A DNA stretch of 64,000 nucleotides from positions 248,001-312,000 of the forward strand of contig NZ_ABCK01000005.1 in the NCBI RefSeq assembly GCF_000170755.1. Reading direction: 5' to 3'. The position numbers and the translations under genes are program-made. Shown here piece by piece: positions 3,325 to 48,064 of this stretch. The DNA is from Lentisphaera araneosa HTCC2155 (GTDB lineage: Bacteria; Verrucomicrobiota; Lentisphaeria; Lentisphaerales; Lentisphaeraceae). The stretch's first letter is position 1. Each line of letters opens with the position of its first letter. A model generated the notes under the pieces. It did not search any database. It had not been told where the DNA came from and was given only the letters and a program-made list of their open reading frames with translations.

Positions 3325-4908
3325 ATGAAGTGTTTCTTATTCGCACTGCTTTTTTCACTTTTTGCGATCAAGGCTAACGAAAAGCCCAATGTACTTCTTA
3401 TCCTCGTGGATGATATGGGATACTCGGATATCGGCTGCATGGGCTCAGAGATCCCCACCCCGCACCTCGACTCACTAGCCAGTAATGGCATGCTCTTTAC
3501 CCAAGCCTACAACACGGCTAAATGCTTCTCAACACGCGCCTCACTCCTCAGTGGAGTTTATTTTCAGCAGACCGACAAAGACTTCACCAACACAAACCTC
3601 ATTGCAGAAGTCCTTAAGCCACAGGGCTACACCAGCCTCTGGGCCGGCAAACACCACGCCAGTTTTGACCCGCGCACGAGGGGTTTCGACCGCTTTTACG
3701 GTTTCCTCGGTGGAGCGGTCAGCTTCTGGAACCCCAGCATGGTTCAGCGAGAAGGTGTAGGCAAACCTGCCAACATCGGTGAATCTCCTTGGATTCTCGA
3801 CAGCGATGAAAAAACCCTGCCTTTCACGCCTGATAAAGATTGGTATGCGACAGATGCTTTTACTGACAAAGGCATTGCTTGGCTGGAAGAATACAAAGAT
3901 GATAAACCTTTCTTCCTCTACATGGCTTATAACGCTCCGCACTGGCCCCTTCATGCTCACAAAGAAGATATCGACTTATTCAAGGGCAAGTACGACGCTG
4001 GCTTTGAAGCCATTCGTGCGGCTCGTTTCAAACGCCAAATGGATGAAAATATTCTCGGCCCATCTGTAAAAGAATTAGCCGTACCAGATTGGAATGAAAT
4101 TTGGTCAGAACTTAGCCCCAAAGAAAAAGAGCAGTATGCTCGCCGTATGGAAATCCATGCAGCGATGATGAAAAACCTCGACGACAATATTGGTCGCCTC
4201 GTGACTAAACTTAAAGAACAAGGTCGCCTAGATAATACCCTCATCTTTTTTCTTGGCGATAATGGTGCCAGCCCCGAAAGCCCTGACGGTCGTGTTAAAA
4301 ACTTTGATGTGAATAACTTATCCGGTGATGAAACGAGTTACCCTTCCATTCGCAAAAGCTGGGCTGTAACGGCAAATACACCACTCAATCTCTATAAGTC
4401 TTCTTCTTTCGAAGGAGGAACCAATACGCCAATGATCGTTCATTGGCCCAAAGGAATTAAAAAGACAGGGACAAATAACCATACTCCTGTGCACTTAGTC
4501 GACATTATGCCCACACTTGTTGAACTTGGTGGTGCTGAATACAAAGCGAGTGAAAAAATCCCTCCCATGCAGGGGGTTTCCATGACTGCTCTATTCAAAG
4601 GCGAGTCCATCAATCGCGAGAATCCGCTCTTTTTTCAGTATGCTGGCGGTTCAGCTCTTCGCGATGGTGATTACAAACTCGTAAGAAGAAACTACAAAAA
4701 ACCCTGGGAGCTTTACAAAGTGTCCACTGATCGTGTTGAAAAACATAATCTCGCCAAAGAAATGCCTGAAAAAGTTGAGGCCATGAATAAAGCCTGGCAG
4801 CAAAAATTCAAAGATATGACTGGCAGCTCCTTTACGGATCACCTCAAGGAAAATGAACAGAAAAAGAAAGAAAAAGCCGCAAAAATTGCGAAAAGAAAAA
4901 AGAAATAA
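3325..4908 (+). CDS. Secreted sulfatase with atypical CFSTR active-site motif
   Basis: 527 residues from ATG 3325; a TTG three bases earlier is also possible, but AAGGAG at 3310-3315 is well spaced for the ATG. Signal peptide, then KPNVLLILVDDMGYSD with the calcium-binding Asp pair, GKHHASFD, APHWPLHA and FFLGDNGASPES. The active-site Cys (residue 67) lies in AKCFSTRASLLSG: the position normally Pro (or Ala) two residues after the Cys is Ser. Close relatives at 12044 and 22764 have KCAPTR there, so a single C-to-T change in the codon would explain it. Whether the Cys is still converted to formylglycine is uncertain. The C-terminus is very Lys-rich. It follows DUF1080 directly. Confidence 0.92.
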   Translation: MKCFLFALLFSLFAIKANEKPNVLLILVDDMGYSDIGCMGSEIPTPHLDSLASNGMLFTQAYNTAKCFSTRASLLSGVYFQQTDKDFTNTNLIAEVLKPQGYTSLWAGKHHASFDPRTRGFDRFYGFLGGAVSFWNPSMVQREGVGKPANIGESPWILDSDEKTLPFTPDKDWYATDAFTDKGIAWLEEYKDDKPFFLYMAYNAPHWPLHAHKEDIDLFKGKYDAGFEAIRAARFKRQMDENILGPSVKELAVPDWNEIWSELSPKEKEQYARRMEIHAAMMKNLDDNIGRLVTKLKEQGRLDNTLIFFLGDNGASPESPDGRVKNFDVNNLSGDETSYPSIRKSWAVTANTPLNLYKSSSFEGGTNTPMIVHWPKGIKKTGTNNHTPVHLVDIMPTLVELGGAEYKASEKIPPMQGVSMTALFKGESINRENPLFFQYAGGSALRDGDYKLVRRNYKKPWELYKVSTDRVEKHNLAKEMPEKVEAMNKAWQQKFKDMTGSSFTDHLKENEQKKKEKAAKIAKRKKK

Positions 4909-4972
4909 GTTCTCACTCTTGTGAGCAGGAAGTTAAGTCTGTATAATTCCAGTGACAATAACGGGAGCCAAA

Positions 4973-5593
4973 ATGAGCGATAAGCCAGACCAATTTCTCA
5001 CAAGAGAAACACTACTTAGCCGTGCAAAGAACCAGGACGATGCCACTGCATGGGAAGACTTTGTTAATTACTACAAGGATTTCATATTCATTGTCATTCG
5101 GCACATGAATATTCCTTACAATGATTGTGAGGACTTGATCCAAGAAACCTTGCTCAAAATTTGGAAAAACCTACAAAAATTTGACGTGGATAATGACCGC
5201 GCCAAATTCCGCACTTGGTTGAGTACGGTGGTTCGAAACACTGTTCTCAATTATATCGACAAGAAAAATCGCAACTACAAGAAGCAGGAACGCGTTCGCG
5301 AAGAGCAAGAAGTACGACCCGAATTATTTAATCAATCTAAGGATGGGCAACTCGACGAATTTATCGAAAAGGAATGGCAAGTTTACGTCACTAACTTGGC
5401 GATGAAAAAGATCACGCCCCTCTTCTCTCCTCAAGCAATAGAAGCTTTCCAAAGAAGTTTGGATGGCGAGAGCACCGAAAGTATTGCCGAAAAACTCAAC
5501 ATTAAACCTAACTCAGTTTACAAACTCAAGAACCGCGTCAAAGGTCGCCTCATTCTTGAAATCAAAGCCCTCAAACGCGAACTCGAGCCCTAA
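4973..5593 (+). CDS. ECF-type RNA polymerase sigma factor
   Basis: 206 residues from ATG 4973, chosen over an upstream in-frame ATG (4952) because GGGAG lies just before it. Region 2 is clear: an acidic-aromatic helix WEDFVNYYKDFIFIVIR, the core-binding DCEDLIQETLLKIWKNL, and KFRTWLSTVVRNTVLNYI for -10 recognition. Region 4 is the C-terminal SIAEKLNIKPNSVYKLKNRVKGRL helix-turn-helix. It sits 26 bp before a membrane Ser/Thr kinase, so the pair is probably one transcript. No anti-sigma gene is nearby. ECF factors linked to Ser/Thr kinases are known from Planctomycetes; by analogy the kinase may control this factor. A second factor of the same type is at 45387. Confidence 0.92.
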   Translation: MSDKPDQFLTRETLLSRAKNQDDATAWEDFVNYYKDFIFIVIRHMNIPYNDCEDLIQETLLKIWKNLQKFDVDNDRAKFRTWLSTVVRNTVLNYIDKKNRNYKKQERVREEQEVRPELFNQSKDGQLDEFIEKEWQVYVTNLAMKKITPLFSPQAIEAFQRSLDGESTESIAEKLNIKPNSVYKLKNRVKGRLILEIKALKRELEP

Positions 5594-5619
5594 GCTTTAG
5601 GTCTAAAGCACTTTCCCCC

Positions 5620-7644
5620 ATGACAGATAACAAAGTAGATATGGATTACCGTCTTCTCGACTTCTACGATGAAGTCGATGAAGACGAAAGTGCTCTTCTA
5701 GAGGACTCTGCCCCCATCTACTATGAGCTCATGGGGCTTCCCAAGCGCTATACCGATTTTTCATTCCTCGCCAAAGGGGGTATGAAGCAGGTATCAAAAG
5801 TTTTTGATCAAAAATCCAATCGTCATGTGGCTTATGCTCAGCTCCTTCCCGAATCACCTCGCGAGCTCTACGAACCCTTCTTGAGAGAAGGTCGCCTCAC
5901 AGCTTTACTCGAACACCCCAATATTATCACCATCCACGATGTGGGAGTCGACCGTAATGAGCTTCCTTACTTTACGATGGAAATCATGACTGGTCAGACC
6001 CTTGCCGAGATCATAAAACAACTCAATGCCAAAGACCCGACTTGTCAATACAGTCAGGATGACCTCCTGCGAATTTTTATTAAAATCTGCGATGCGATTT
6101 CCTATGCTCATTCTAAAGGCGTCTTGCACCTAGATATAAAACCCGAAAATATTCAGGTGGGCCAATTTGGTGAAGTGATCATCTGTGATTGGGGACTCGG
6201 TAAAATCATTGGCTCAGAAGAGGAAGAAGAAAAAGATTTTGATGAGCTCCTACTGAATCCCGATCTTCTGAACAACATGACCCTAGATGGCGTCATCAAG
6301 GGAACGCCAGGCTTCATGGCCCCTGAACAAATCCACAAAATGTGTGATATGTCTGAACAAACCGATATCTATTCTCTCGGATCAATTCTCTACACAATTC
6401 TTTGCCTCAAGAGTCCCATTGAAGCAGAAAATACCAAGGAAGCGCTGGCAAAAACAACCCAGGGAGAATTTTTACTCCCCAGTGAACGCCTGCCGGATTC
6501 TCCTGTGCCAAAAAGTTTGGAAGCGGTCATTTCAAAGGCCATGGAAAGAAATCCAGAAGATCGCTACGAATCTTGTGTGCAACTTAAGAGTGAACTAGAA
6601 AAATACCTCTCTGGTCATGCCACCCATGCAGAAAACGCCGGTATCATCAAACTCTTAAGCCTTCTCTACAAACGTAATAAAACCTTGTCAATCACCATTA
6701 TCAGTGCCATCACTTTGTTTACCATCGGCGTGATCATTTCTTTCAAATCACTCAAACAGCGTGAGCAAGTTGCGCAGAACGCAAAATTACTTGCCGAAGA
6801 AAACCTCCAAAAATACAAAATCTCTCAGGAAGAAAAAGAAAAAGTTCGAGCTCGGCTACAAAGTAATCTCTTGGAAAACTTTAAAGAATTTCGCTCCACT
6901 GCAAACCTTAGAGTTTCCGCGAAAAAAATGCAACAAGCCATACTCAATGACCCAGAAAACAAAAAATTGTGGCTGGAACTAGGCAATACTTATTTTATGA
7001 TGCAGGATTTTGAGAAAAGTATCGAGGCTTTTGAAAAGTCAGGTGCCAAGAAAGATTTTTTACTTATGCGCATCGCGAAAAAATATAAAGATCGCAAAGG
7101 CAATAGACGCTTATTGAGTGGTGATGATTTAGGGGCGTTATTTCGCGATATAAATAATCCTATTCGTTGGCCGGTAAAGCGCACCATGCTCTTATTTGAT
7201 TCAATTACCCGTGCAAATCACGATGACCATACAGTGGTGGTCAAATCTCTATTGGAAGAATTTAACCCAGAATGGAATGGCGCCTTTAAATATAGTGTCA
7301 GGCACTCACTCCTTATCACGGGTCCCCATTTAAAAACACTCGCTAAATTTGATCACCAAAACACCCCCTATTGCTTATTAAGCACTCTGAAAATCAATTC
7401 ACTGCACCTCTACAAAACATCTTTTTCTGACCTGCATCAAATCCGTGGTCTCAACATCAATAAACTGGATATACGAGGTACGAAAGTCAGCGACTTAAGT
7501 CCTCTACAATTCCAAACAAAAATTCGTATCTTAATTATTCTGCCGGGTCAATTCACTAAAGAACAGCTCAAGCAGCTCCCTTCCTGGATTGCCTATCGTC
7601 AAGAAACTTATGAAAAGTCCCCGATTAAAGGACTTAATAAATAA
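5620..7644 (+). CDS. Membrane Ser/Thr kinase, WNK-like lysine position
   Basis: 674 residues: acidic N-terminus (1-45), kinase domain (about 48-330), one membrane span (356-375), a charged coiled coil, a TPR-like unit (about 440-475) and a short leucine-rich tail (about 590-640). The catalytic loop HLDIKPEN keeps D172 and N177 but has Leu for the HRD Arg; DFG is DWG (190-192); GTPGFMAPEQ is intact. The beta-3 motif is VAYA, with Ala73 where VAIK has its lysine, and the glycine loop is AKGGMKQV, with K56 at the third glycine. That is the WNK-kinase arrangement, so activity is plausible. The kinase domain should be cytoplasmic and the tail periplasmic. No good ribosome site precedes ATG 5620; translation is perhaps coupled to the sigma gene. 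Confidence 0.88.
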   Translation: MTDNKVDMDYRLLDFYDEVDEDESALLEDSAPIYYELMGLPKRYTDFSFLAKGGMKQVSKVFDQKSNRHVAYAQLLPESPRELYEPFLREGRLTALLEHPNIITIHDVGVDRNELPYFTMEIMTGQTLAEIIKQLNAKDPTCQYSQDDLLRIFIKICDAISYAHSKGVLHLDIKPENIQVGQFGEVIICDWGLGKIIGSEEEEEKDFDELLLNPDLLNNMTLDGVIKGTPGFMAPEQIHKMCDMSEQTDIYSLGSILYTILCLKSPIEAENTKEALAKTTQGEFLLPSERLPDSPVPKSLEAVISKAMERNPEDRYESCVQLKSELEKYLSGHATHAENAGIIKLLSLLYKRNKTLSITIISAITLFTIGVIISFKSLKQREQVAQNAKLLAEENLQKYKISQEEKEKVRARLQSNLLENFKEFRSTANLRVSAKKMQQAILNDPENKKLWLELGNTYFMMQDFEKSIEAFEKSGAKKDFLLMRIAKKYKDRKGNRRLLSGDDLGALFRDINNPIRWPVKRTMLLFDSITRANHDDHTVVVKSLLEEFNPEWNGAFKYSVRHSLLITGPHLKTLAKFDHQNTPYCLLSTLKINSLHLYKTSFSDLHQIRGLNINKLDIRGTKVSDLSPLQFQTKIRILIILPGQFTKEQLKQLPSWIAYRQETYEKSPIKGLNK

Positions 7645-7999
7645 ATTTAAGAGTACCCAGTTAACGATGTATATATATCTACAGCATAGGTAAATTATGG
7701 TGAAACCATTAAACTTTAATTAGCTTAGGGCAAAGCCCTAAAATAAACGAAGGGAGGAAGATATCATGCCTCTAGGTATGAAACTGAGAAGGCTGTTGAA
7801 GTAGTGTACCTAAAGGCACACAATTTTTCACCTTTGTACAAAACCCCACATTATATGTGGGGCTATTTAAAGTGACATCGCTTTGCGATGTGAGTTCTCA
7901 TCGTTAATTGCTTAATCGTAAATAAATTTAAGGTTCAAGGCAGCAAAGCAGATCAATTCTAATGACTATTGCTTATATCAACTAAATTGATGAGAAGCT
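7645..7999. repeat. Spacer with a series of mini-hairpins
   Basis: A gap of about 355 bp between the convergent kinase and pseudopilin genes. It holds several short perfect hairpins: GGTGAAACC near 7700, TTAGGGC-AAA-GCCCTAA near 7727, the terminator-like hairpin at 7844, and ACATCGC-TTT-GCGATGT at 7875-7891. Between them, GGGAGGAAG near 7752 is followed by ATG at 7766 and a 12-codon frame (MPLGMKLRRLLK); I cannot say whether it is translated. Confidence 0.5.
7844..7862 (+). terminator. Hairpin terminator after kinase gene
   Basis: CCCCACAT-TAT-ATGTGGGG is a perfect 8-bp stem with a 3-base loop, followed by CTATTT. The T-run is short. It lies 200 bp past the kinase stop and could end transcripts from either side of this convergent pair. 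Confidence 0.5.
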
Positions 8000-8758
8000 T
8001 TATTTCCAGCAATCCCACAGTGTCTCTTGAACATCACTAGTCGACCAAGCGTCAAACAGAGGGAAAGTGGTTTGCATAAAGTTTATATACCGAACGGACC
8101 CGTCACTCATGCCCCAATTGGTTTTATAACCATCATGTAGCCAAAAATCTAGGTCACTCACTTTATCTTGAAAATCATCGATTTGAATATTGGCATTTGA
8201 TCCCGTCCCAATAACTTTTTCCACACCTTCCCCAATCATGAGCGCATCATTATTGAGCTGAGTAATTTTCATACTTACTTGTGTACCATCATGGTCACCA
8301 GCCATCCATCCCCTGTGCTGGGCTTTAACGTTACCTGAATTTGTTAGGCCATACTTCGTTGGTCCATAGGAGGTTATAGGATGGCTTGGGTTATTACCTG
8401 AAGGCACAAATTCAGGACAGGCAAAAGTAGGAAAACTTGTGACTTGATTTTTTCCTTCGCTAATACCTGGTGAACGATTTTTATACTGATTGTCAGTTAA
8501 GTCTATATTTAAGTAGGAAAAAATCCTATCTGTCCAACCAACATTGTCACCCGTCCCTGTCGTATAATTAGTTGGAAAATATTGGTCATGATCATCAGTG
8601 TACATAAATAAAGCAGTCACAATCTGTTTATTATTATTGACACATATCGCTTTCATTGCTGTCTTACGTGCCTTTCCTAAAGCTGGTAAAAGTAAAGAGG
8701 CTAAAATTCCTATGATGGCCACGACTACTAAGAGTTCAATTAAGGTGAATTTTTTCAT
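8000..8758 (-). CDS. Type II pseudopilin-like protein (prepilin N-terminus, DGSV family)
   Basis: 252 residues. It opens with [19 protein letters not shown], a type IV prepilin/pseudopilin N-terminus: F+1, E+5 and a long hydrophobic helix serving as membrane anchor and assembly surface. The usual Gly just before the cleavage site is Lys here. The globular part has [25 protein letters not shown] and ends with H-x(10)-DGSVRYINF, like the large PVC family of DUF1559-type pseudopilins with an H-x-DG motif. It should be an inner-membrane or fibre subunit, but no secretion or pilus genes are adjacent. A close paralog is at 17163. The DNA identity at the 5' ends of the two copies is high. Confidence 0.85.
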
Positions 8759-8871
8759 AATTATAAATCCCGTTTTATATAATCACTAAGTTCCTAAAAA
8801 TTTTAGGACATCACTGACTTCATTTTTCATAAAAACCTGACATTCTTATCAACTGAGAATATCAAAGCTAT

Positions 8872-10359
8872 TTACTTTTTGTTTTTCTTCGATTTATCGC
8901 GTTTCACCATGACCACGCGCTCATCTGGAACTTCGTAGTAATCGCGGATGCTAGTGTATTCCTCTTTCATTTCTTTAATCTTAGACGCCATCTCGGGATT
9001 ATTGTAGAGATTATTCATTTCAGCGGGATCATTTTTAAGGTCATAGAATTCCCAATGATCTTTTCCTTTGGCTTTTTTACCATAGAATTTAATGAGTTTA
9101 TAATCACCAGTACTTACGCCATCGTGCATCGTCACGCCATGACCCTCCATGTAATAATGGTAGTAAAGGCTCTTGCGCCAGTCTTTCGGTGTCTCACCCT
9201 CAAATAGGGGCACTAGACTTTCTCCCTGCATATCACTAGGCGCCTCAACACCTGCAATGTCTAAAAACGTTTCCGCGAAATCAATATTCTGACAAAGATC
9301 CGTGTTAACGCTTCCCGGCTTGGTCACACCCGGCCATTTCACAATGTAAGGAGTTCTAAAAGATTCTTCATACATCCAGCGCTTATCAAACCAGCCATGC
9401 TCTCCAAGATAAAAGCCCTGATCTGAACTGAACATGACAATAGTGTTGTCATCAATGCCGTCTGCTTTGAGTTGATCGAGCAAGCGCCCCACGTTTTCAT
9501 CAACACCAGCGACACAGGCAAAATAATCTCTCATGTAAGCTTGGTACTTCTGACGTGTCAACTCTTCTTTAGATAGGTCTTTATTTAACAAATATTTTCT
9601 GTGTTCCCAAATATTTGTTTTCAAGTCTTTTTCCAGATTCATATGCTCGCGAATGCCCATAGAGTGTTGCACGGCCATATCGCGAGTTTTGTAATCGTCA
9701 AAAAGAGTCTTGGGCTCAGGAAATACCGTATCTTTAAACTTTTCGACAAAGCGAGGCGCAGGAATCCATGCACGGTGAGGAGCCTTATAATGAACCATCA
9801 ACATAAAGGGTTTATCTTTATCGCGCTTTTCATTGTACCATTCAAGAGCCCGATTAGTGATCACATCAGAGGAATGTCCCTCATGATTCACTTTGCCTTC
9901 AGCTGTTAGTAAGGCTGGGTTGATATACTTGCCATGACCCGGGAGGGTTTCCCAATGATCAAAACCTTGAATCTCTCCCTGCAAATGAGTTTTTCCAAAT
10001 AAAGCTGACTGATATCCGCCTTTGCCAATCAATTTCTGAAACTGCATCTGATCGTGATTAAACTTTTCAACGTTACCGTACTTACCGTTTTTGTGACTGT
10101 GCTTACCTGTGAGTAAGGCCGCGCGACTTGGAGCACACACAGAATTACAAACATAAGTTTTATCAAAGCGCATGCCTTCTCTAGCAAGTCCATCAATATT
10201 TTTGGTCATATTCATCTCGGCAAAGCGACTGCCGTAGGCGCCGATGGCATTGACTGCCATGTCATCACAAAAAAGCCATAGAATATTTGGTTTCTTACTC
10301 TTTGCGTCTTCCGCAAAAACTAAGCCAGAAAGCAGAATCATTATAAAAAATCGAGTCAT
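8872..10359 (-). CDS. Secreted sulfatase (CAPSR), Lys-rich tail
   Basis: 495 residues. Signal peptide MTRFFIMILLSGLVFA, then KPNILWLFCDDMAVNAIGAYG. Active-site Cys75 lies in SVCAPSRAALLTGKHSHKNGK, a standard C-x-P-S-R formylglycine site. GKTHLQG, HYKAPHRAW and MFSSDQGFYLGEHGWFDKRWMYEES follow; the last is the GEHG-x3-DKR block typical of N-acetylglucosamine-6-sulfatase-like S1 enzymes. This is a family resemblance, not proof of substrate. It ends VKRDKSKKNKK. Its closest relative in the window is the pseudogene at 25876, which shares the same architecture and shows what that gene has lost. AGGGA precedes the ATG. It is transcribed divergently from the sulfatase at 10466. Confidence 0.95.
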   Translation of the reverse strand: MTRFFIMILLSGLVFAEDAKSKKPNILWLFCDDMAVNAIGAYGSRFAEMNMTKNIDGLAREGMRFDKTYVCNSVCAPSRAALLTGKHSHKNGKYGNVEKFNHDQMQFQKLIGKGGYQSALFGKTHLQGEIQGFDHWETLPGHGKYINPALLTAEGKVNHEGHSSDVITNRALEWYNEKRDKDKPFMLMVHYKAPHRAWIPAPRFVEKFKDTVFPEPKTLFDDYKTRDMAVQHSMGIREHMNLEKDLKTNIWEHRKYLLNKDLSKEELTRQKYQAYMRDYFACVAGVDENVGRLLDQLKADGIDDNTIVMFSSDQGFYLGEHGWFDKRWMYEESFRTPYIVKWPGVTKPGSVNTDLCQNIDFAETFLDIAGVEAPSDMQGESLVPLFEGETPKDWRKSLYYHYYMEGHGVTMHDGVSTGDYKLIKFYGKKAKGKDHWEFYDLKNDPAEMNNLYNNPEMASKIKEMKEEYTSIRDYYEVPDERVVMVKRDKSKKNKK

Positions 10360-10465
10360 TTTATTTTTTCCCTGTATATATTTTTCATTTCGATACGATT
10401 AATAGAAGTACACCAAGCCTAGGAATTAAGCTGGACACATAAAACGAATTAAATAGGGATCATAC

Positions 10466-11923
10466 GTGAAACTCATTCTCACTTTTTTATTTTTCACTCT
10501 TTCAAGCCCGCTCCTGTCGGACCAGCGCCCAAATATTGTCTTTGTTTTAATCGACGACCTTGGCTGGAATGGACTGAGTTCATATGGCAATAAGTATGTG
10601 CAGACCCCACATCTAGATAAACTGGCAAAAGAAGGCGCACGCTTTACCGATGCCTACGGAATGGGGCAATGCTCACCTGCCCGCTTTGCATTTCTCACTG
10701 GACAATCGGCTGCGCGCACGAATCACACCGCCGTGGTTCTCGAAAAACATCTGCTACCCAATGCTCGCCTCATCCAACCTGAATCTAATCGTACTCTTGA
10801 CCCTAAATCAATCAATATTGGCCGAGAACTCAAAAACACTGGCTATCGCGTCGGTGTCATCGGCAAATGGCATATCGATGTAGAGGAAAGCCGAGTGCGC
10901 GCTCAAATGGGTTCCCCAAAGTATATTGCTCAGTGGGGCTTTGATCACATCAAAATGAAAAAGCAACCAAATGATCCCAAAAGTGTCATGGCTTATTCAC
11001 AGGCAGTTATTGACTATCTCAAACAGGATCAATCCAAGCCAACTTTTGCCTACCTCGCACACACCACATTGCATACAGCTTTAGCGGCGCCTGCTGAACT
11101 TATACAAAAATATGTGGCTATGGGCTACAACAAAAGCCCTGATAAAAAAGGCAGCTGGGAAGATCGTCCGATTGCGGATTACTTCGCGATGATTGATTAC
11201 ATGGATCAAAGCATCGGCCTTTTGATGAAAGGCATCGAGGAAATGAAAAGTGATCGCGAAACCCTCGTCATTTTCATGTCAGATAATGGTGGCCTCTCAC
11301 GAGTTTGGGAAAACGAACCACTTCGTCGTGGCAAAGGCTCTGCTTATGAGGGTGGCATTCGCGTCCCTCTTATCATGCACTGGCCTGAAAGGATCAAAGC
11401 TGGACAAACGATTTCTGAACCTGTTCACATAACTGACTTATTTCCTAGTTTTTTAAGCATTGCAGATACCCCCATCCCCGCCAATCATCCCCTCGATGGT
11501 ATGAACATCATGCCCCTAGTAAATGGTGGGAACATTGAAAGAGAGTTCTTCTGTATTCACATGCCCGTCTACGTCCCTCATTACAGCCACACCCCAAGTA
11601 GTGTAATTCGCATGGGAGATTATAAATTAGTGAAGTTCTTTGGCGATTATATTGCGGACCCCGCAAGTAAAGAAATCACCGCTGAAGGACGAATTGAACT
11701 CTTCAACTTGCGAAATGATCTCGGCGAAACAAAAGACCTCTCAAAAGAAATGCCAGAAAAAGCTAAAGAGATGGAACGAAAATTAATGAACTGGCTCGCT
11801 GAAAGAAAGGCATATATGCCGAAGATTAACCCCAAATTCAATGCTAAAAAATGGAGTGACTCTATCGCTAGCAAAGTGGATTCCTACGGCAAAAGCATCT
11901 ATAAAAAAGATCAAAAGAAGTAG
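10466..11923 (+). CDS. Secreted sulfatase (CSPAR)
   Basis: 485 residues from a GTG start at 10466 with AGGGA just upstream. Signal peptide, then RPNIVFVLIDDLGWNG. Cys69 lies in GQCSPARFAFLTGQSAARTNHT; the core C-x-P-x-R is kept though the fourth position is Ala, not Ser/Thr. GKWHIDVEES, HTTLHTALAAP and FMSDNGGLS give the other catalytic and metal-binding regions, and GGIRVPLIMHWPE is the usual arylsulfatase A-like block. It ends with a short Lys cluster (YKKDQKK). The stop codon lies in a small AAGTAG/CTACTT stem followed by a short T-run, a possible terminator. Sulfate ester specificity unknown. Confidence 0.94.
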   Translation: MKLILTFLFFTLSSPLLSDQRPNIVFVLIDDLGWNGLSSYGNKYVQTPHLDKLAKEGARFTDAYGMGQCSPARFAFLTGQSAARTNHTAVVLEKHLLPNARLIQPESNRTLDPKSINIGRELKNTGYRVGVIGKWHIDVEESRVRAQMGSPKYIAQWGFDHIKMKKQPNDPKSVMAYSQAVIDYLKQDQSKPTFAYLAHTTLHTALAAPAELIQKYVAMGYNKSPDKKGSWEDRPIADYFAMIDYMDQSIGLLMKGIEEMKSDRETLVIFMSDNGGLSRVWENEPLRRGKGSAYEGGIRVPLIMHWPERIKAGQTISEPVHITDLFPSFLSIADTPIPANHPLDGMNIMPLVNGGNIEREFFCIHMPVYVPHYSHTPSSVIRMGDYKLVKFFGDYIADPASKEITAEGRIELFNLRNDLGETKDLSKEMPEKAKEMERKLMNWLAERKAYMPKINPKFNAKKWSDSIASKVDSYGKSIYKKDQKK

Positions 11924-27356: not shown

Positions 27357-27716
27357 GTGCCGAAGGTACGGCATAGAGCTCTATGTCATGCCCTTGGCAT
27401 TCCAAATGAGCAGTTTTGAGTACCTAAGGTACGGCATACGCTAGCCTGGCTCGTGAGAGCTAGGAGATAAGGTCGATAAAAAAAGTGAGTGCCGAAGGTA
27501 CGGTATAGAGCTCTATGTCATGCCCTTGGCATTCAATTTGAATCGTGCATTCCGTCACCCAAGGCTACCGCCATTGGGCTATATTATACCATGCCTTCGG
27601 CATTCCAAATGAGCAGTTTTGAGTACCGAAGGTACGGCATAGAGCTCTATGTCATGCCCTTGGCATTCAATTTGAATTGTGCATTCCGTCACCCAAGGCT
27701 ACCGCCATTGGGCTAA
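27357..27716. repeat. Repeat cluster, left of group II intron
   Basis: About 133-bp modules repeated in tandem. Landmarks: GTGCCGAAGGTACGGCATAG at 27357 and 27489 (the latter with one change) and a variant GTACCGAAGG at 27623; then AGAGCTCTATG, TGCCCTTGGCA, and between copies GGCTCGTGAGAGCTAGG. A side block with CCCAAGGCTACCGCCATTGGGCTA occurs at about 27560 and again at about 27690, where the intron interrupts it. Many pieces are small palindromes (TGCC-TTC-GGCA). No coding content. Confidence 0.8.
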
Positions 27717-27760
27717 GTATAAGGGTAGGGAAGACTCCTTGCGGAGTCTCCCCTCCTTCC

Positions 27761-27793
27761 GAACCGTACGTGCGGTTCTCCCGCATACGGCTC
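27761..27793 (-). ncRNA. Group II intron domain V
   Basis: Minus strand begins GAGCCGTATGCGGGAGAA and closes CCGCACGTACGGTTC: the conserved catalytic hairpin of group II introns, with the AGC-like triad region (GAGCCG start), a GAGA-type tip and pairing GCCGTA/TACGGT. It lies 6 nt after the maturase stop codon, on the same strand. Confidence 0.9.
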
Positions 27794-27798
27794 TCCAG

Positions 27799-29627: not shown

Positions 29628-29755
29628 TATATCATGCCTTCGGCATTCAATTGAGCAGTTTTGAGTACCGAAGGTACGCCATAAAGAAGCTTGGCTCGTG
29701 AGAGCTAGGAGATAAGGTCGATCAAAAACGTGAGTGCCGAAGGTACGGCATAGAG
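29628..29755. repeat. Repeat cluster, right of group II intron
   Basis: Continues the module cut by the intron: TGCC-TTC-GGCA, GAGCAGTTTTGAGTACCGAAGG, GGCTCGTGAGAGCTAGG and GTGCCGAAGGTACGGCATAG at 29734, matching the copies at 27357 and 27489. Confidence 0.8.
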
Positions 29756-29995
29756 AAAACAAAATTCATCCACAGATTCCCCAGATTAACACAGATAAAA
29801 CTGCCAACAGATAACTAATCACTTTTTTAAAGCAGGAAGGATTCCTGCGCTCCCAGCAAAAAAACCTGCAGGCCTCTTGCTTCTTTCAGCGTAGCGATCT
29901 TTCAGCGTAGCGATCTTTCAGCGTAGCGATCTTTCAGCGCAGCGATCTTTCAGCGTAGCGGTTTTTCAGCGTAGCGGTTTTTCAGCGTAGCGGTC
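29756..29995. repeat. Hairpin-GCTCCCAG repeat plus 7 x 16-bp tandem array
   Basis: First an AT-rich phrase (CATCCACAGATT, AACACAGATAAA) seen in variants at 37310-37960. Then GCAGGAA-GGA-TTCCTGC (29832-29848) followed by GCTCCCAG, with about 55 bp shared with 51746-51815. Then seven head-to-tail 16-bp units TTTCAGCGTAGCGATC (some GCGGTT/GCGGTC variants) filling 29884-29995 exactly and ending at the first base of the next gene's stop codon (TTA at 29996). Confidence 0.85.
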
Positions 29996-31909
29996 TTACT
30001 TCTTTTTCTTCTTACTTTTTTTATCTTTCTTACCTGTACTTATCTTCACTTCCAAACCCAAAGTCTCGGCAATTGCCATCTGCATCCGTGGTACATATCC
30101 CCCTGCTTTACTCGCAAGAGCTTGTTTGGCCAAAGGTCGACCTTGCTCACCCATCCAGTCAAGCACATTCAAAGCAAATAACAAAGCAGGAGCTTCCTTC
30201 TCGATAATCGCTCCGATAGTCTCATAGCATTTATCCGCATCACCAATTTTCAAAAGTGCCCATGCTGCAATGATGCGCACGTGATCTGATTCGTCATTTA
30301 AAGCCTTTATCAATGGTGTTCTTGCGGACTTCGCAGCTTCTTCAAGGAGAAGCAATCCCATAGCGCCCCAATAACGAAGTTCCGGGGACTGGTCCTCAAG
30401 TAAGTGAATGAGCTGCTCTAAGTTCGCGGGATCTTTCGCTAGTGCCACATCTATTGCATCCAAACACCCCGCATGATTAAACATTTTGGGATCACGAACT
30501 AAGTCATACATGCTTGTATTATGTTTTTCAGCTAGGCGTAGCATTTCATATTCAGGAAGAAGTCCCGCATCATAATACTTTTCCTGCGCATTTCGCAAAG
30601 CCTTACGCATCTGTACTGCTACTTCTTTAAACTCTGGGTGATCAATGAGGTTATTGATATTATCTGAGTCCGAGCTCCTATCATAGAGTTCTTCTGTATG
30701 CGTCTTTGCATGGAAAAAACGGCTACTGACTTCATTGGTATTTCCCGCTTTATGCTCCGCGACCCAGGACTGCGCGGCAGGCATTTTCCACAAATAATTT
30801 AACATCGCTCCTCGAGGGGCAAAGGGCATGTAGTTTCTAATATAAGTGTATCGGCCCTTGCGTACTGAACGCTCATTATCGACGCGTTCGTCCATGCGTC
30901 CACGGAAACTGAAGTGATACTCTGCCTCTGCTTCTTTCTCCTTTCCTAAAAAGACACGTCCCTGCATTGATTGTGGAATTTCTGATCCCGTAATACTCAA
31001 CCAAGTTTTGGGCATATCCACAAAGCTGACCAATTCTTTAATGCGTGCGCCTCGCTTCTCCGCTGGCCAGAGATGCTTATACTTTTCCGGAATACGAATA
31101 ATTAGCGGTGCATGAATTCCGCTCTCAAAGAGAAAGCGCTTACTCCGTGGTAAAACTCCACCATGATCGGAGCAATAGATGACAATTGTATCATCTGCTA
31201 AACCATCTTCTTCCAAAAGCTTCAAAGTATAACCAATTTCCGTATCCATCTTCGATATTTGGTCATGGTATTTAGAGTAATTTTGTCTCATTATGGGTGT
31301 GTCTGGGTGGTACTTTGCGAGCTGTACCTTGGCTGGATCAAGTTTGTAGTCCTTGAGGCCATGTGCCTTACTTTCGTGACTCGTCATCGTATTGATCACA
31401 CAGAAAAATGGTTGATCCTTCTTGCGCAGACGCCAAAAATGAAAGGTACTGCGGATGTCCTTGTTTTCTTTTTTCGATTGAAAGTCCCAAATCTTTTTAG
31501 TCGTGCGCCCCTTAGACCCCAAGTTATAATCTGTTTTAAATCCATTTGCGGTAAAATAACCTGCCTTCTGCAGCTGCTGTGGATAAAGTTTGATCTTGTC
31601 ATAGGGAATTGCATGCGAACTTCGCATTGGGTGCGTGCCCATAGAAACGGCATTCACACCTGTTAACCACGTGCAACGCGAGGGAGCACAAACGGGTGCA
31701 TTGGCAAAGGTATTCTCATACAAGAAGCCATCGGCCGCTAGCTTGTCAAGATTTGGAGTTTTGGCATTTTCGTTACCATAACAGCCCAACCAAGATGCAT
31801 TATTATCTTCACTCGTCAGCCATAGAATATTAGGGCGCTCTAGCTCAAAAGCTTGGCTGATTACAGATGAGGCACAAATTGCCCAAGTCACTAGAAGTTT
31901 TCTTAACAT
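29996..31909 (-). CDS. Secreted sulfatase with C-terminal HEAT-like domain
   Basis: 637 residues, the longest sulfatase here. Signal peptide MLRKLLVTWAICASSVISQA, then RPNILWLTSEDNNASWLGCYG and Cys74 in APVCAPSRCTWLTGVNAVSMG. NTMTSHESK and IYCSDHGGVLPRSKRFLFESG follow; the SEDN start and DHGG block resemble heparan N-sulfatase/sulfamidase-like S1 enzymes. From about residue 500 it has helical repeats (LIHLLEDQSPELRYWGAMGLLLL, LIKALNDESDHVRIIAAWALLKIG) of HEAT type, likely a protein- or glycan-contact domain. It ends in a Lys-only cluster (KKDKKSKKKKK). The stop codon abuts a 16-bp tandem array. Confidence 0.93.
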   Translation of the reverse strand: MLRKLLVTWAICASSVISQAFELERPNILWLTSEDNNASWLGCYGNENAKTPNLDKLAADGFLYENTFANAPVCAPSRCTWLTGVNAVSMGTHPMRSSHAIPYDKIKLYPQQLQKAGYFTANGFKTDYNLGSKGRTTKKIWDFQSKKENKDIRSTFHFWRLRKKDQPFFCVINTMTSHESKAHGLKDYKLDPAKVQLAKYHPDTPIMRQNYSKYHDQISKMDTEIGYTLKLLEEDGLADDTIVIYCSDHGGVLPRSKRFLFESGIHAPLIIRIPEKYKHLWPAEKRGARIKELVSFVDMPKTWLSITGSEIPQSMQGRVFLGKEKEAEAEYHFSFRGRMDERVDNERSVRKGRYTYIRNYMPFAPRGAMLNYLWKMPAAQSWVAEHKAGNTNEVSSRFFHAKTHTEELYDRSSDSDNINNLIDHPEFKEVAVQMRKALRNAQEKYYDAGLLPEYEMLRLAEKHNTSMYDLVRDPKMFNHAGCLDAIDVALAKDPANLEQLIHLLEDQSPELRYWGAMGLLLLEEAAKSARTPLIKALNDESDHVRIIAAWALLKIGDADKCYETIGAIIEKEAPALLFALNVLDWMGEQGRPLAKQALASKAGGYVPRMQMAIAETLGLEVKISTGKKDKKSKKKKK

Positions 31910-37019: not shown

Positions 37020-38127
37020 AATTCATTTTTCCTGTGTTTTAAAATCTACACCTTTAATCGTACACAACTGGGACGCTCTTTACATAGAAAAACATTATTT
37101 TTCAATATAAGCTCAAACAAACCCAAGTTTGAGCGTAGTGACAAGTTGCCTTAGGAAGCACCTGTCGGCTTAGGAAGCGCCTGTCGGCTTAGGTAGCGCT
37201 TCGCTTAGGTGACAGGAAACAGGTGTTTGATAAGCAGCTGGGAGCCCCGCATTCCAATGCGGCACCCTATTACGGACTCCGCAAAGATATTTTTTATAGA
37301 GCTAAATTGAACCACGGATAAACACAGAGAGATGTCGCTTCGCTCAAGGTAGCGGCAACAAGTTACCTTAGGAAGCGCACTGCGTTCTTAGGTATCTCTT
37401 CACTCAAGGTTTTCACAAAAAAACATATAAGTATTTTGGCAATTATTTTCATTCAAACCTAAAGCATTTAACTGTAATCGTGCCAAAGGCACAAAGCATA
37501 ATTCAGCCTATGGTTTTTAACCATAGGACCTTACATTTAAGCCCCATCCCGTTCTAAAGGAACGACGCATATATCATAAAACATTATTAATTAGGCGCTC
37601 GTATTACTTATGTAAATTCATTAGGATTCTTGTGCTTTTTTATGCTCTTTAGTGATTCGATTTTTTTCTAATATTAGATAATTTTATTTAACCACAGAAA
37701 ATCACAAAACAACACAGAAAATTTTAATCTGTCAAATGATTCCTGAAATCAAAGCGAAGCGCTACCTAAGCGAAGCGCTACCTAAGCGAAGTAGTCACTA
37801 CCTGGGTGAATCCGTGTGAATCTGTGGATGAAAAATTTTACATGTAGTTAATACCGCATTGGAATGCGGAGCTCCCAGCTGCTTATCAAACACCTGCTAC
37901 CTAAGCAAAGCAAAGCGATCCCTATCTGTGTTTATTCGTGTTTATCCGTGGTTGAATATCTTCACATGCAGTTAATGCCGATTAGCAATCGGCGCTCCCA
38001 GGTGTTGCCATAAGCCAATTAGTTTTTTATCTATCATCTGAAACCTAAGCGAAGCGCAACCTAAGCGAAGCGCAACCTAAGCGAAGCGCAACCTAAGCGA
38101 AGCGCTACCTAAGCACGAAGTGCGCTA
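37020..38127. repeat. 1.1-kb gene-free repeat zone
   Basis: No gene. It holds: (a) a 43-bp inverted repeat with one mismatch, 37220-37262 versus 37854-37896, each with CCGCATT-GG-AATGCGG and GCTCCCAG; (b) a related unit at 37978-38001, CCGATT-AGC-AATCGG then GCTCCCAG, with a shared left flank ACATG(T/C)AGTTAAT; (c) CCTATGGTT-TTT-AACCATAGG at about 37504; (d) linked short palindromes between TTAGG and AAGG spacers at 37140-37210 and 37330-37410; (e) 16-bp units CCTAAGCGAAGCGCTA at about 37750-37790, and four perfect CCTAAGCGAAGCGCAA/CTA units at 38044-38107 running into the stop codon at 38128; (f) several ATCCGTGGTT/ACCACGGATAAACAC phrases. Confidence 0.85.
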
Positions 38128-45386: not shown

Positions 45387-45986
45387 GTGAGCAAAATTGA
45401 GCACTCAACGCGACTAACACTTATTCAACGAGTTCAAAGCCAAGATGACGAAGCCGCTTGGAACGAGTTTGTTGAGTTTTATAAATCTTATTTTTACGTC
45501 ATTATTCGTCGTATGAATATCAACGCAAGTGATTCAGAAGACATCTGTCAGCAGATTTTCCTGAAAGTTTGGAAACAAATCCCAAAATTCGAATACGATC
45601 GGGAACGCTCAAAATTTCGTACATGGTTGACCACTTTAGCTCACGGTACTGCAGTAGACTATATTCGCAAAAAAGTACGTGACTCCAACAAGCACGATAA
45701 AGCACAAAACGAATGTGAAACGATTCGTTCTTTCTCTCAACCAGAAATTGACTCTATGGCTGAAAAAGAATGGAAAATCTTTATTACCAACATGGCTTTG
45801 GAAAACATTCGTAAAAGCTTTTCAGGCAAAGCTGTGCAGGTTTTTGAAATGAGCATGAACGGTCAATCCAATGAGAGTATTGCCGAAGAACTGGAGATAA
45901 AAATCGAATCAGTTTATCTCCTTAAAAATCGCGTCAAAAAGAAAATTACCGACGAAATCAAACGTCTTAGAGAGCATTATGAATAG
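45387..45986 (+). CDS. ECF-type RNA polymerase sigma factor
   Basis: 199 residues from a GTG start at 45387 with AGGAGA 4 bases upstream. Region 2: DDEAAWNEFVEFYKSYFYVIIRRMN, DSEDICQQIFLKVWKQIPKFEY and KFRTWLTTLAHGTAVDYIRKK; region 4: SNESIAEELEIKIESVYLLKNRVKKKI. It is a close paralog of the factor at 4973 with the same spacing and no anti-sigma partner nearby. The kinase at 41432 is convergent and two genes away, so a functional link is possible but not as clear as for the 4973/5620 pair. Confidence 0.92.
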   Translation: MSKIEHSTRLTLIQRVQSQDDEAAWNEFVEFYKSYFYVIIRRMNINASDSEDICQQIFLKVWKQIPKFEYDRERSKFRTWLTTLAHGTAVDYIRKKVRDSNKHDKAQNECETIRSFSQPEIDSMAEKEWKIFITNMALENIRKSFSGKAVQVFEMSMNGQSNESIAEELEIKIESVYLLKNRVKKKITDEIKRLREHYE

Positions 45987-46171
45987 GAAGCTGAGTGCTT
46001 GGGAATCAGGTTAAAGGTTCGGTCTGCGCCCTCAAAGTATCGCTTCTCTCAAGGTATCGCCTAGCGGCTTAAGGTATCGGACTTTGTCCTCAAAGTGGAA
46101 TTTAAAGTATTAAAAGTTTGAATTTAGTTCGGTAAGTTTGTTTATTTCTTTATAAAATGGAGGAGTAAATA
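45987..46171. repeat. Inverted-orientation repeat units upstream of four-helix protein
   Basis: About 46030-46100 carries units such as TCAAAGTATCGCTTCTCTC and CAAGGTATCGCC, which are reverse-complement relatives of the 17-bp unit in the array at 46526. The four-helix-bundle gene is therefore flanked by the same repeat family in opposite orientations. Confidence 0.6.
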
Positions 46172-46525
46172 ATGTATGCACGTTCTTTTGAAGAATTAAA
46201 TATTTGGCAAAGTTCTCAAGACTTATCAGTTCAAATTTATGCGCTTTTCAAAGCCTGCCATGATTACGGATTTAAAGATCAAATTCAAAGAGCTGCTGTT
46301 TCAGTAATGAATAATATCGCAGAAGGGTTTGAGCGGGAAAGCAAAGCTGATTTTGCCAGATTCCTCTTGATATCAAAAGCCTCAAGTGGCGAAGTAAGAA
46401 GTATGCTCTACTTAGCTAATAAACTTAATTATCTCACAAAAGACCAAAGTGATGGTTTAATTACTTCATACAAAAAACTATCTACTTCAATTCAATCACT
46501 AAGAAAATCCATTCTACAAAATTAA
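46172..46525 (+). CDS. Four-helix-bundle protein (23S rRNA intervening-sequence protein family)
   Basis: 117 residues, no signal peptide. The pattern SFEELNIWQSSQDLSVQIYALFKACH, FKDQIQRAAVSVMNNIAEGFERES, DFARFLLISKASSGEVRSMLYLANKL and a final helix is that of the S23/IVP family, once found in insertions of 23S rRNA. Members are common as stand-alone genes; a related fold is the accessory protein Avd of diversity-generating retroelements. No rRNA or such retroelement is adjacent, so its role here is unknown. GGAGG precedes the ATG. Its stop codon is directly followed by the 29-copy tandem array. Confidence 0.9.
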   Translation: MYARSFEELNIWQSSQDLSVQIYALFKACHDYGFKDQIQRAAVSVMNNIAEGFERESKADFARFLLISKASSGEVRSMLYLANKLNYLTKDQSDGLITSYKKLSTSIQSLRKSILQN

Positions 46526-47018
46526 CCTTGAGCGAAGCGATACTTTGAGCGAAGCGATACTTTGAGCGAAGCGATACTTTGAGCGAAGCGATACTTTGAG
46601 CGAAGCGATACTTTGAGCGAAGCGATACTTTGAGCGAAGCGATACTTTGAGCGAAGCGATACTTTGAGCGAAGCGATACTTTGAGCGAAGCGATACTTTG
46701 AGCGAAGCGATACTTTGAGCGAAGCGATACTTTGAGCGAAGCGATACTTTGAGCGAAGCGATACTTTGAGCGAAGCGATACTTTGAGCGAAGCGATACTT
46801 TGAGCGAAGCGATACTTTGAGCGAAGCGATACTTTGAGCGAAGCGATACTTTGAGCGAAGCGATACTTTGAGCGAAGCGATACTTTGAGCGAAGCGATAC
46901 TTTGAGCGAAGCGATACTTTGAGCGAAGCGATACTTTGAGCGAAGCGATACTTTGAGCGAAGCGATACTTTGAGCGAAGCGATACTTTGAGCGAAGCGAT
47001 ACCTTGAGCGAAGCGATA
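46526..47018. repeat. 29-copy tandem array of a 17-bp unit
   Basis: CTTTGAGCGAAGCGATA repeats with no change in length: 28 exact periods of 17 bp between the first and last copies. The first (46526) and last (47002) copies have CCTTGAG, all 27 inner ones CTTTGAG. It starts at the base after the TAA of the four-helix gene. There are no spacers, so it is not a CRISPR. The complementary strand reads through openly for 185 codons only because of the repeat. Confidence 0.97.
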
Positions 47019-47059
47019 CCTTAAGCTCTTAGGCGCCACCTTAAGGATAAATCCCGATC

Positions 47060-48064
47060 CTACTCACTCTTCGGAAACTTACCAATTTTCGCACTTGGAG
47101 TTGTGTCGGCTTCGATGTCCCCCATGGCGAATTGAATACCCGTGACCATATGCTGGAGAGCAATGGGATTTTCATAGGTAGATTGATTATGCCCGAGGTT
47201 GGTATAAAACACATTTGAGTTTTTGTAAGTTTTGACCCATGAAACGGGGTAGTCATTATCTTTACGTCTCATTTTATCGCGTTTCATTCCTGGTGCGAAA
47301 ATATCTAGGCTGACAAGTATGCGAAGCTTTTCGCGAGTAAAATGCGAATCATCTTCATACTGATAGATTTCATCATTAATCTGATAGCCTTGGGGAATCA
47401 TTTTTGAACAAGCATGGTCAGGGCATTCGTTGTAGAGTGTCACCGTTTCTTTGGCCCACCAAGGGTGACCATTAAATAAACCGCCTATGGCCTCTTTATA
47501 ATTGGCCCAATCCTTGTGGCAGTCGGTCGCTGCGTGAATGCCGATCAAGCCTTTTTTAGATTCAAAAAACTTTTCGAAAGCAGCTCGAGCTTTAGGAGAA
47601 ACAATCGCATTCTGAGTCGCATTAATAATCATAATGCCATCAAATTGCGCTAGTGATTCATCGGTAAAAATAGCTTCGTCTTCAGTGTGATAAATTTCAT
47701 AAGCACCCGTTTGTTGACCTACTGCCGTCAGCATTTTTGTGCCAAATTCAATGGACCCATGACGAAAGCCCGTAGTATGAGAATAAGCCAATAACTTTCT
47801 TTTCTTTTGAGGTTTAACGACATCGAGCTTAGCGATCATTTTTTCATATTCATGAGCATTTTCAATCATCCTTGCCTGAGCCAAGAGCTCACTACCTTGA
47901 GCCCTAAGCTTGTAGTACTTTACTTTGTCAGTTTCTTTGAGAGGCTTGGCCTTCTTCATAAAAGCTTGTCCCCTCTTTTTTAAGTCCGCCACCGATTCCT
48001 CAGCCTGTATAGAAATCAAGCTAAAACATAGCGATAAAGTAAGAATGAATTTGAGCACTTGCAT
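47060..48064 (-). CDS. Secreted ThuA-domain protein
   Basis: 334 residues at most. Signal peptide, then a helical segment (30-85) and a ThuA domain: LLAYSHTTGFRHGSIEFGTKML, YHTEDEAIFTDESLAQFDGIMIINATQN and GLIGIHAATDCHKDW, HPWWAKET and YPVSWVKTYKNSNVFYTNLGHN. ThuA is a glutamine-amidotransferase-like fold linked to trehalose and other sugar use. The ATG at 48064 directly abuts AAGGAG; a GTG at 48058 has the ideal spacing and may be the true start. Last gene of a three-gene operon (4-bp gap to the gene before it), so it probably works with the GH31 and GH-like enzymes. Confidence 0.85.
   Translation of the reverse strand: MQVLKFILTLSLCFSLISIQAEESVADLKKRGQAFMKKAKPLKETDKVKYYKLRAQGSELLAQARMIENAHEYEKMIAKLDVVKPQKKRKLLAYSHTTGFRHGSIEFGTKMLTAVGQQTGAYEIYHTEDEAIFTDESLAQFDGIMIINATQNAIVSPKARAAFEKFFESKKGLIGIHAATDCHKDWANYKEAIGGLFNGHPWWAKETVTLYNECPDHACSKMIPQGYQINDEIYQYEDDSHFTREKLRILVSLDIFAPGMKRDKMRRKDNDYPVSWVKTYKNSNVFYTNLGHNQSTYENPIALQHMVTGIQFAMGDIEADTTPSAKIGKFPKSE

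Follow-up and report, generated by a model that had tools for sequence, protein, structure and literature searches.

The 29-copy tandem array in the window (the whole stretch of 64,000 nucleotides analyzed here) is best explained, with a probability that we put at about 0.6, as the right arm of an IVS-like IVP element that lies outside rRNA and that has been expanded at this locus by internal duplication. At this locus an IVP gene stands between degenerate inverted repeat units on its left and the array on its right, and tandem repeats recur beside genes of this family in many phyla. The protein family, the rRNA IVSs and the heptamers of one such IVS are already known, and the interest of these results lies in the general pattern. 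The first-pass annotation of the array is partly supported: the internal growth that it proposed is retained, but it overlooked the array as an arm of a gene-centered element, along with the identity of the gene to the left, the degenerate inverted copies at 46030-46098 and the many sister arrays.

Structure of the array

A unit-by-unit cut of positions 46526-47018 confirms the earlier description of exact 17-bp units with differing ends. The region consists of exactly 29 head-to-tail units, of which 27 (units 2-28) are identical and the two end units (1 and 29) differ from them by a single base, CC instead of CT (Table 1). TRF reports a period of 17, 28.9 copies, 99% matches and a score of 977. 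A chance origin does not come into question; the copy number is that of an assembly in 81 contigs and of one strain. The first base of the array is the base directly 3' of the TAA of the plus-strand IVP gene, and its end lies 41 bases from the stop of the minus-strand ThuA gene, so that its placement between convergent genes had been rightly recognized. The 17 bases that follow the array (CCTTAAGCTCTTAGGCG) form a degenerate unit of its own family. The tandem, near-identical units are those of a minisatellite or VNTR; a CRISPR array was considered and rejected, the units running head to tail without spacers.

The spelling of the units bears on how the array arose. In 943,689 scanned bases of the genome, 20 of the 22 occurrences of the end-unit spelling GATACCTTGAG lie outside the window, in sister arrays, and the inner spelling GATACTTTGAG is found 27 times in the array, once in the left arm and once elsewhere (29 occurrences). 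Because the end spelling is the family spelling elsewhere and the inner spelling is almost private to the array, these data agree with the suggested expansion from inside the array, between a pair of older end units. A single unit variant would recently have been multiplied 27 times between these end units, and tandem arms may in general lengthen or shorten through slippage or unequal exchange.

It had also been argued that the unit is not kept for coding. This is reasonable for a 17-bp unit, yet the minus strand is open through the array: a 185-aa ORF (46482-47039) with a 17-aa repeat peptide spans all of it, an open frame that we take as mechanical. When folding is predicted for single-stranded DNA, every one of 200 shuffles outperforms the array's first 120 bases (z +2.65), which have no excess structure on their own; the term hairpin array is therefore wrong for the 17-bp unit, and selection for a hairpin in it is rejected. 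Units from 37 arrays of the sampled genome show a mild excess, with a longest stem of 3.16 per unit versus 2.55 after shuffling.

Table 1. Features of the window locus, related arrays and IVP genes of the same genome, and host genes with nested elements
Feature	Location	Strand	Evidence or remarks
IVP gene, 117 aa, 23S_rRNA_IVP / four helix bundle protein	46172..46525	+	PF05635 E 1.4e-32; TIGR02436 E 1.8e-31
ECF sigma factor, upstream neighbor (context)	45387..45986	+	TIGR02937 E 6.8e-21
ThuA-domain protein, downstream convergent neighbor (context)	47060..48064	-	PF06283 E 3.2e-42
Left arm, inverted degenerate units of the array family (CTCAAAGTATCGC, CTCAAGGTATCGC, CTTAAGGTATCGG and others)	46030..46098	-	Sequence, RNA duplex, MFE fold
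Right arm, 29 x 17 bp array	46526..47018	+	Unit CTTTGAGCGAAGCGATA, ends CCTTGAGCGAAGCGATA; TRF and unit cut
Degenerate outer end of right arm (CCTTAAGCTCTTAGGCGCCACCTTAAGGAT)	47019..47048	+	Sequence; 46991-47060 pairs with left arm, z -5.8
Sister array without IVP gene, 16 bp x 7.2 (TCTTTCAGCGTAGCGA)	29882..29997		TRF; nearly the unit after IVP gene L209 of G001
Sister array without IVP gene, 19 bp x 2.6-3.4	37150..37210		TRF
Sister array without IVP gene, 16 bp x 2.5	37752..37791		TRF
Sister array without IVP gene, 16 bp x 4.6 (AACCTAAGCGAAGCGC)	38042..38114		TRF; motif shared with array after IVP gene L011 (C14)
IVP gene with inverted arrays on both sides	L009, contig C20		
Long array right after IVP stop	L011, contig C14		
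IVP gene with 20-bp arrays on both sides	L012, contig C3		
BREX-1 pglX genes with nested IVP, host frame open throughout	L222 rc 4423-8409; L223 rc 6167-10735		

The IVP gene and its left arm

The gene that abuts the array also matches NF008912 above the cut-off, and the solved relatives of its product are 2gsc and 2rld. An Rfam scan of the whole window detected no rRNA, the neighbors of the element being the sigma factor and ThuA genes; the scan placed three Acido-Lenti-1 RNAs (RF01687), a family whose name points to a Lentisphaerota host, and one group II intron domain (RF00029) at 27419-27795 and 29664-29709.

The left arm is complementary to the array. The RNA duplex of 46000-46150 with 46526-46680 is predicted at -113.9 kcal/mol, versus -64.6 +/- 6.3 with a dinucleotide-shuffled left arm (z -7.8), and the direct orientation yields -39.6; the outer end of the right arm pairs likewise (Table 1). 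In the MFE fold of 46000-47060 the left arm is paired and the IVP gene lies inside the loop of the stem, and in silico the locus displays the complementary termini around an ORF that characterize an IVS. At other loci of the genus or family, the inverted-arm duplex has z -3.8 (L009), -3.1 (L209) and -5.8 (L012 with its far right arm), it is weak at L210-19450 (z -1.1) and L210-7151 (z -1.6), and the direct orientation gives more sharing than the inverted one at L011, L012 (near arms), L210-17178 and L220. Inverted arm symmetry is not universal. A search for proteins that bind AGCGAAGCG had been proposed, and the product of the neighboring IVP gene would be the most evident candidate.

Related arrays in the genome and genus

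Four PF05635 genes were found in the genome, and all four touch repeat arrays. Arrays of the same style also lie away from IVP genes, as do 19 of the 25 listed for this genome, and the window itself holds examples (Table 1). They are otherwise sparse, with four counted (L074, L225, L239 and L241) in a 560-kb sample made up of C5:1-200000 and the beginnings of C1, C2, C4 and C6, of which C1 was known beforehand to hold one array.

The first-pass annotation had made the occurrence of similar arrays in related genomes a check on its reading, and such arrays do occur: in a second genome of the genus (G001), 16- and 17-bp arrays directly follow two IVP genes, and clear tandem arrays (16 bp, 17 bp and one heptad) stand beside three of its four IVP genes. 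The 16-bp array, TTTCAGCGTAGCGTTC, comes close in its unit to the orphan array at position 29882 of the window, the 17-bp array after the second gene reads AAGCCGAAGGCGCTATC, and the third gene (L210-7151) has clear 7-bp repeats, GGCTGTT. Arms of 7 bp and of 16-17 bp thus coexist within one genus. The arm in the window shows a TRF period of 17 and not the 7-bp tandem periodicity, and our preferred explanation holds that arms consist of degenerate 7-bp repeats in most bacteria and that units in this genus have become 16-20 bp long, some with a small palindrome. At a locus in another genome (L104, G039), the IVP frame continues into the downstream repeat, giving a repetitive C-terminal tail of the PNTQHPT type.

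Repeat arms beside IVP genes across phyla

The wider survey comprises the best 80 of 558 confirmed matches to one conserved peptide, in named genomes from many phyla; being the best matches to a single peptide, these loci are not a random sample. Control ORFs were taken from a crude ORF finder. Among these best 80 of 558 matches, TRF repeat cover amounts to 22.0% at 0-150 bp from the IVP match, 6.3% at 150-300 bp and about 1.0-1.5% beyond. At least 20 repeat bases are present in the 150-bp flanks of 67/80 IVP loci versus 138/700 other ORFs, and intergenic DNA less than 400 bp from an IVP gene is 29.8% repeat versus 4.3% elsewhere.

The dominant period of these repeats is 7. Over 130 bp of flank, mean lag-7 identity is 0.366 on one side and 0.395 on the other, versus 0.257 far away, with further peaks at lags 14, 21, 28 and 35; it stands at 0.43-0.50 in the nearest 50 bp and reaches background (about 0.25) by about 150-200 bp. 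A second sample from related genomes, in which 23 of 29 loci were located and the other six were dropped as not located, gave lag-7 identities of 0.351 and 0.396 versus 0.277 and 0.278 in control ORF flanks. The control has a heavy tail because similar arrays exist elsewhere too, and its 95th percentile is exceeded on either arm by only 37 of 77 loci.

The two arms of a locus tend to be inverted copies. Arm-shared 7-mers are more frequent in inverted than in direct orientation at 53 of 77 loci (the reverse at 20, with 4 ties), and on average amount to 6.2% inverted, 4.1% direct and 1.6% in the other-locus control. Over 75 loci the mean arm duplex is -64.4, versus -47.4 with GC-matched arms of other loci (Wilcoxon p 2e-11) and -53.0 in direct orientation (p 7e-6); relative to distant segment pairs of the same loci (-56.8) the gain is small (p 0.006). 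The sequence of the unit is mostly locus-specific, with a weak AGTT preference common to both arms. A universal heptad consensus was set aside as only weak against column-permuted data, scoring 215 versus 186-214 on the left arm and 304 versus 247-266 on the right.

No rRNA was found by Rfam in the 15 of the 80 loci scanned, and in tblastn searches the IVP protein matched 25 plasmid records. Same-strand neighbors on both sides were called for 48/80 IVP genes versus 81/182 control ORFs, a figure from crude calls to which we give no weight because several upstream calls, at the cysD loci, are wrong.

Heptad arrays also occur without a gene. At 200 bp or more from the IVP gene, the 80 loci hold 64 lag-7 arrays, compared to 2 at lag 5, 13 at lag 8, 3 at lag 10 and 1 at lag 11; codon structure inflates the counts at lags 6 and 9 (27 and 26). 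Many of the distant lag-7 arrays resemble paired heptad arms with a short loop (L172:8611, L163:6902, L197:6050). With arrays less than 700 bases from an IVP motif excluded, and between families that are not matched, 0 heptad arrays were counted in 316 kb of 10 IVP-free genomes versus 17 in 593 kb of IVP-rich ones (binomial p 7e-4), lags 6, 8 and 9 showing no significant difference. At L157:739-842, gene-less inverted heptad arms surround what looks like an intrinsic terminator.

Insertion sites and host genes

Filled and empty sites can be compared at the junction of cysD and cysN, which holds four Pseudomonas IVP loci (L135, L145, L148, L199). In the genus of L148, where junctions were read by motif, 22 of 25 genomes are empty, with a gap from the cysD stop to the cysN start of 12 nt in 20 of them and of 11 and 14 nt in the other two; in the remaining three an IVP element fills the gap, which then spans 452-455 nt. 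The genus of L135 yielded an IVP match in 47 of 398 genomes, and each of the 30 loci fetched lies between cysD and cysN. The arms at this junction vary among clades and are still complementary by eye (L148, L199, L252). No target-site duplication is visible there. The IVP gene at this junction is under purifying selection, with a median dN/dS of 0.10 over 117 pairs. For the window locus an empty site was not found, only the ThuA-side genes aligning in the genome compared (G002).

Other elements lie inside coding genes. In one genome (G011) the IVP gene sits within pglX in a different frame, and pglX (1328 aa) is open across the whole element; in another (G047) a pglX of 1522 aa contains two IVP elements. 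BREX PglX profiles match such nested-IVP pglX genes (Table 1) in two and three separate stretches. At L098 (5-2692, minus strand, G003) the IVP gene is contained in an open frame of 896 aa whose UvrB-interaction, RID and DEAD domains come in an order that suggests an Mfd-like host, and at L095 it lies inside an open DNA-methylase frame. Over 111 IVP ORF rows, which include at least two duplicate pairs (L085/L223, L086/L222), alternative frames are open across the IVP gene in 7 of 222 cases versus 22 of 11,100 codon-shuffled controls; because of the duplicate pairs, the seven rows stand for five distinct elements, three in pglX, one in the mfd-like gene and one in the methylase gene. A host gene whose frame continues across a second, inserted gene would be of interest on its own account.

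Proposed mechanism and alternatives

Under the IVS-like reading, the element would sit in a transcribed region and behave like the 23S rRNA IVSs that carry the same gene. Its arms would pair in the transcript within the cell, with the IVP gene in the loop, and the resulting stem could serve as a substrate for RNase III-type cutting. Such an element would be kept where the host product is left unbroken, whether in rRNA loops, at gene junctions or in an ORF that stays open through it. In rRNA loops and between genes, a cut that is not rejoined should do no harm. Inside a pglX or mfd-like gene an RNase III cut would be harmful, so that processing could not be universal unless the ends were rejoined or the stem stayed uncut; the open host frame in these genes suggests read-through there. 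The element may also be mobile, and IVP may bind its arms.

Slippage in a neutral gap between convergent genes, with the adjacent gene incidental, would make the array a plain minisatellite. Its exact inner units, variant-free core and location outside ORFs agree with this, as does the abundance of sister arrays without an IVP gene, but we consider it quite unlikely in view of the contact of every IVP gene of the genome with such arrays, the complementarity of the left arm to the array and the enrichment of repeats beside IVP genes across phyla. The arms could also be DNA operators, repeated boxes that IVP, pentameric in its solved relatives, binds to regulate its own gene or its neighbors, pairing then being incidental. 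That the arms flank the gene on both sides, that their units are regularly spaced and that IVP is under purifying selection are all consistent with this idea, which is nonetheless unlikely for a unit that is mostly locus-specific, with just the weak shared AGTT preference, and for arrays that also exist without IVP.

Very improbable is a third account, in which the units are REP/BIME-like repeats mobilized by a RAYT (Y1) transposase and IVP is a passenger. The genome does have 16 Y1_Tnp matches, and the stem-bearing units superficially resemble REPs; however, the nine Y1 loci that were read, among ten fetched, carry palindromes or repeats of their own in their flanks and none with AGCGAAGCG units, and the heptad arms beside IVP genes are devoid of individual hairpins. 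No Y1 transposase gene lies within or next to the 17-bp repeats of the window array. The Y1 flanks at L114-L122 (G000) have their own palindromic repeat families, several of them tandemly multiplied.

Extending the IVS-like reading beyond the window, we tentatively propose, at somewhat less than even odds, that PF05635 marks an unrecognized, phylum-wide class of small mobile elements with no recognized transposase and with inverted arms of tandem 7-bp (here 17-bp) units. These elements would insert at operon junctions, in rRNA loops and, by means of an overlapping IVP frame, in housekeeping and defense genes (mfd-like, pglX) that remain open; paired heptad arms lacking IVP would be their derivatives, and IVP would drive arm spread or growth. 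Should the element prove widespread beyond rRNA, recognizable by its arms and accompanied by unoccupied sites and copies that lack the gene, its function and movement become testable in a tractable Pseudomonas. The proposal, if true, could account for a broad class of short tandem repeats, so far unexplained, in the intergenic DNA of bacteria. IVP genes appear in surveys of CRISPR-adjacent genes (PMC3936711, PMC10910872), and their presence there might be explained in the same way.

Comparison with known systems

In the open-access literature we found no paper linking non-rRNA IVP genes with flanking tandem repeats, the single paper found there to mention heptamers beside an IVP ORF being one on Coxiella (PMC4990558), and nothing on bacterial arrays in work on GCGAAGC hairpin repeats. 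With REP/RAYT systems and MITEs the present element shares the co-occurrence of a gene-bearing element and gene-less repeat copies in one genome; unlike them, it lacks a transposase gene and is built of short tandem units, and other repeats accompany the Y1 genes read here. PF05635 is described, in PMC10053308, as homologous to Avd of diversity-generating retroelements. Avd has a related fold and belongs to a related family, but its partners are a reverse transcriptase and template/variable repeats, whereas the arms in the window are short tandem units.

The closest counterparts are insertions in rRNA. IVP domains occur in 16S and 23S rRNA insertions of CPR bacteria, in a passage of PMC11270868 that concerns the same family and is silent on flanking repeats and non-rRNA sites. 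In Coxiella, PMC4990558 describes a 23S IVS with tandem heptamers before the S23p/IVP ORF, in two to three copies depending on the strain, and with inverted termini that pair into a stem of 28 bp, RNase III making its 5' cut at the first repeat, and it considers the functionality and origin of 23S IVS/IVP to remain unclear. These heptamers, stem and cut are what lead us to read the general element as an IVS-like unit. The window element resembles the 23S IVSs with an S23p/IVP ORF of Leptospira and Coxiella in its protein family and in the position of the ORF between complementary termini. It differs from them in lying between protein genes and in its arm of 29 units of 17 bp, and most of the elements surveyed likewise depart from the 23S IVS in their location at gene junctions, with a few inside coding genes.
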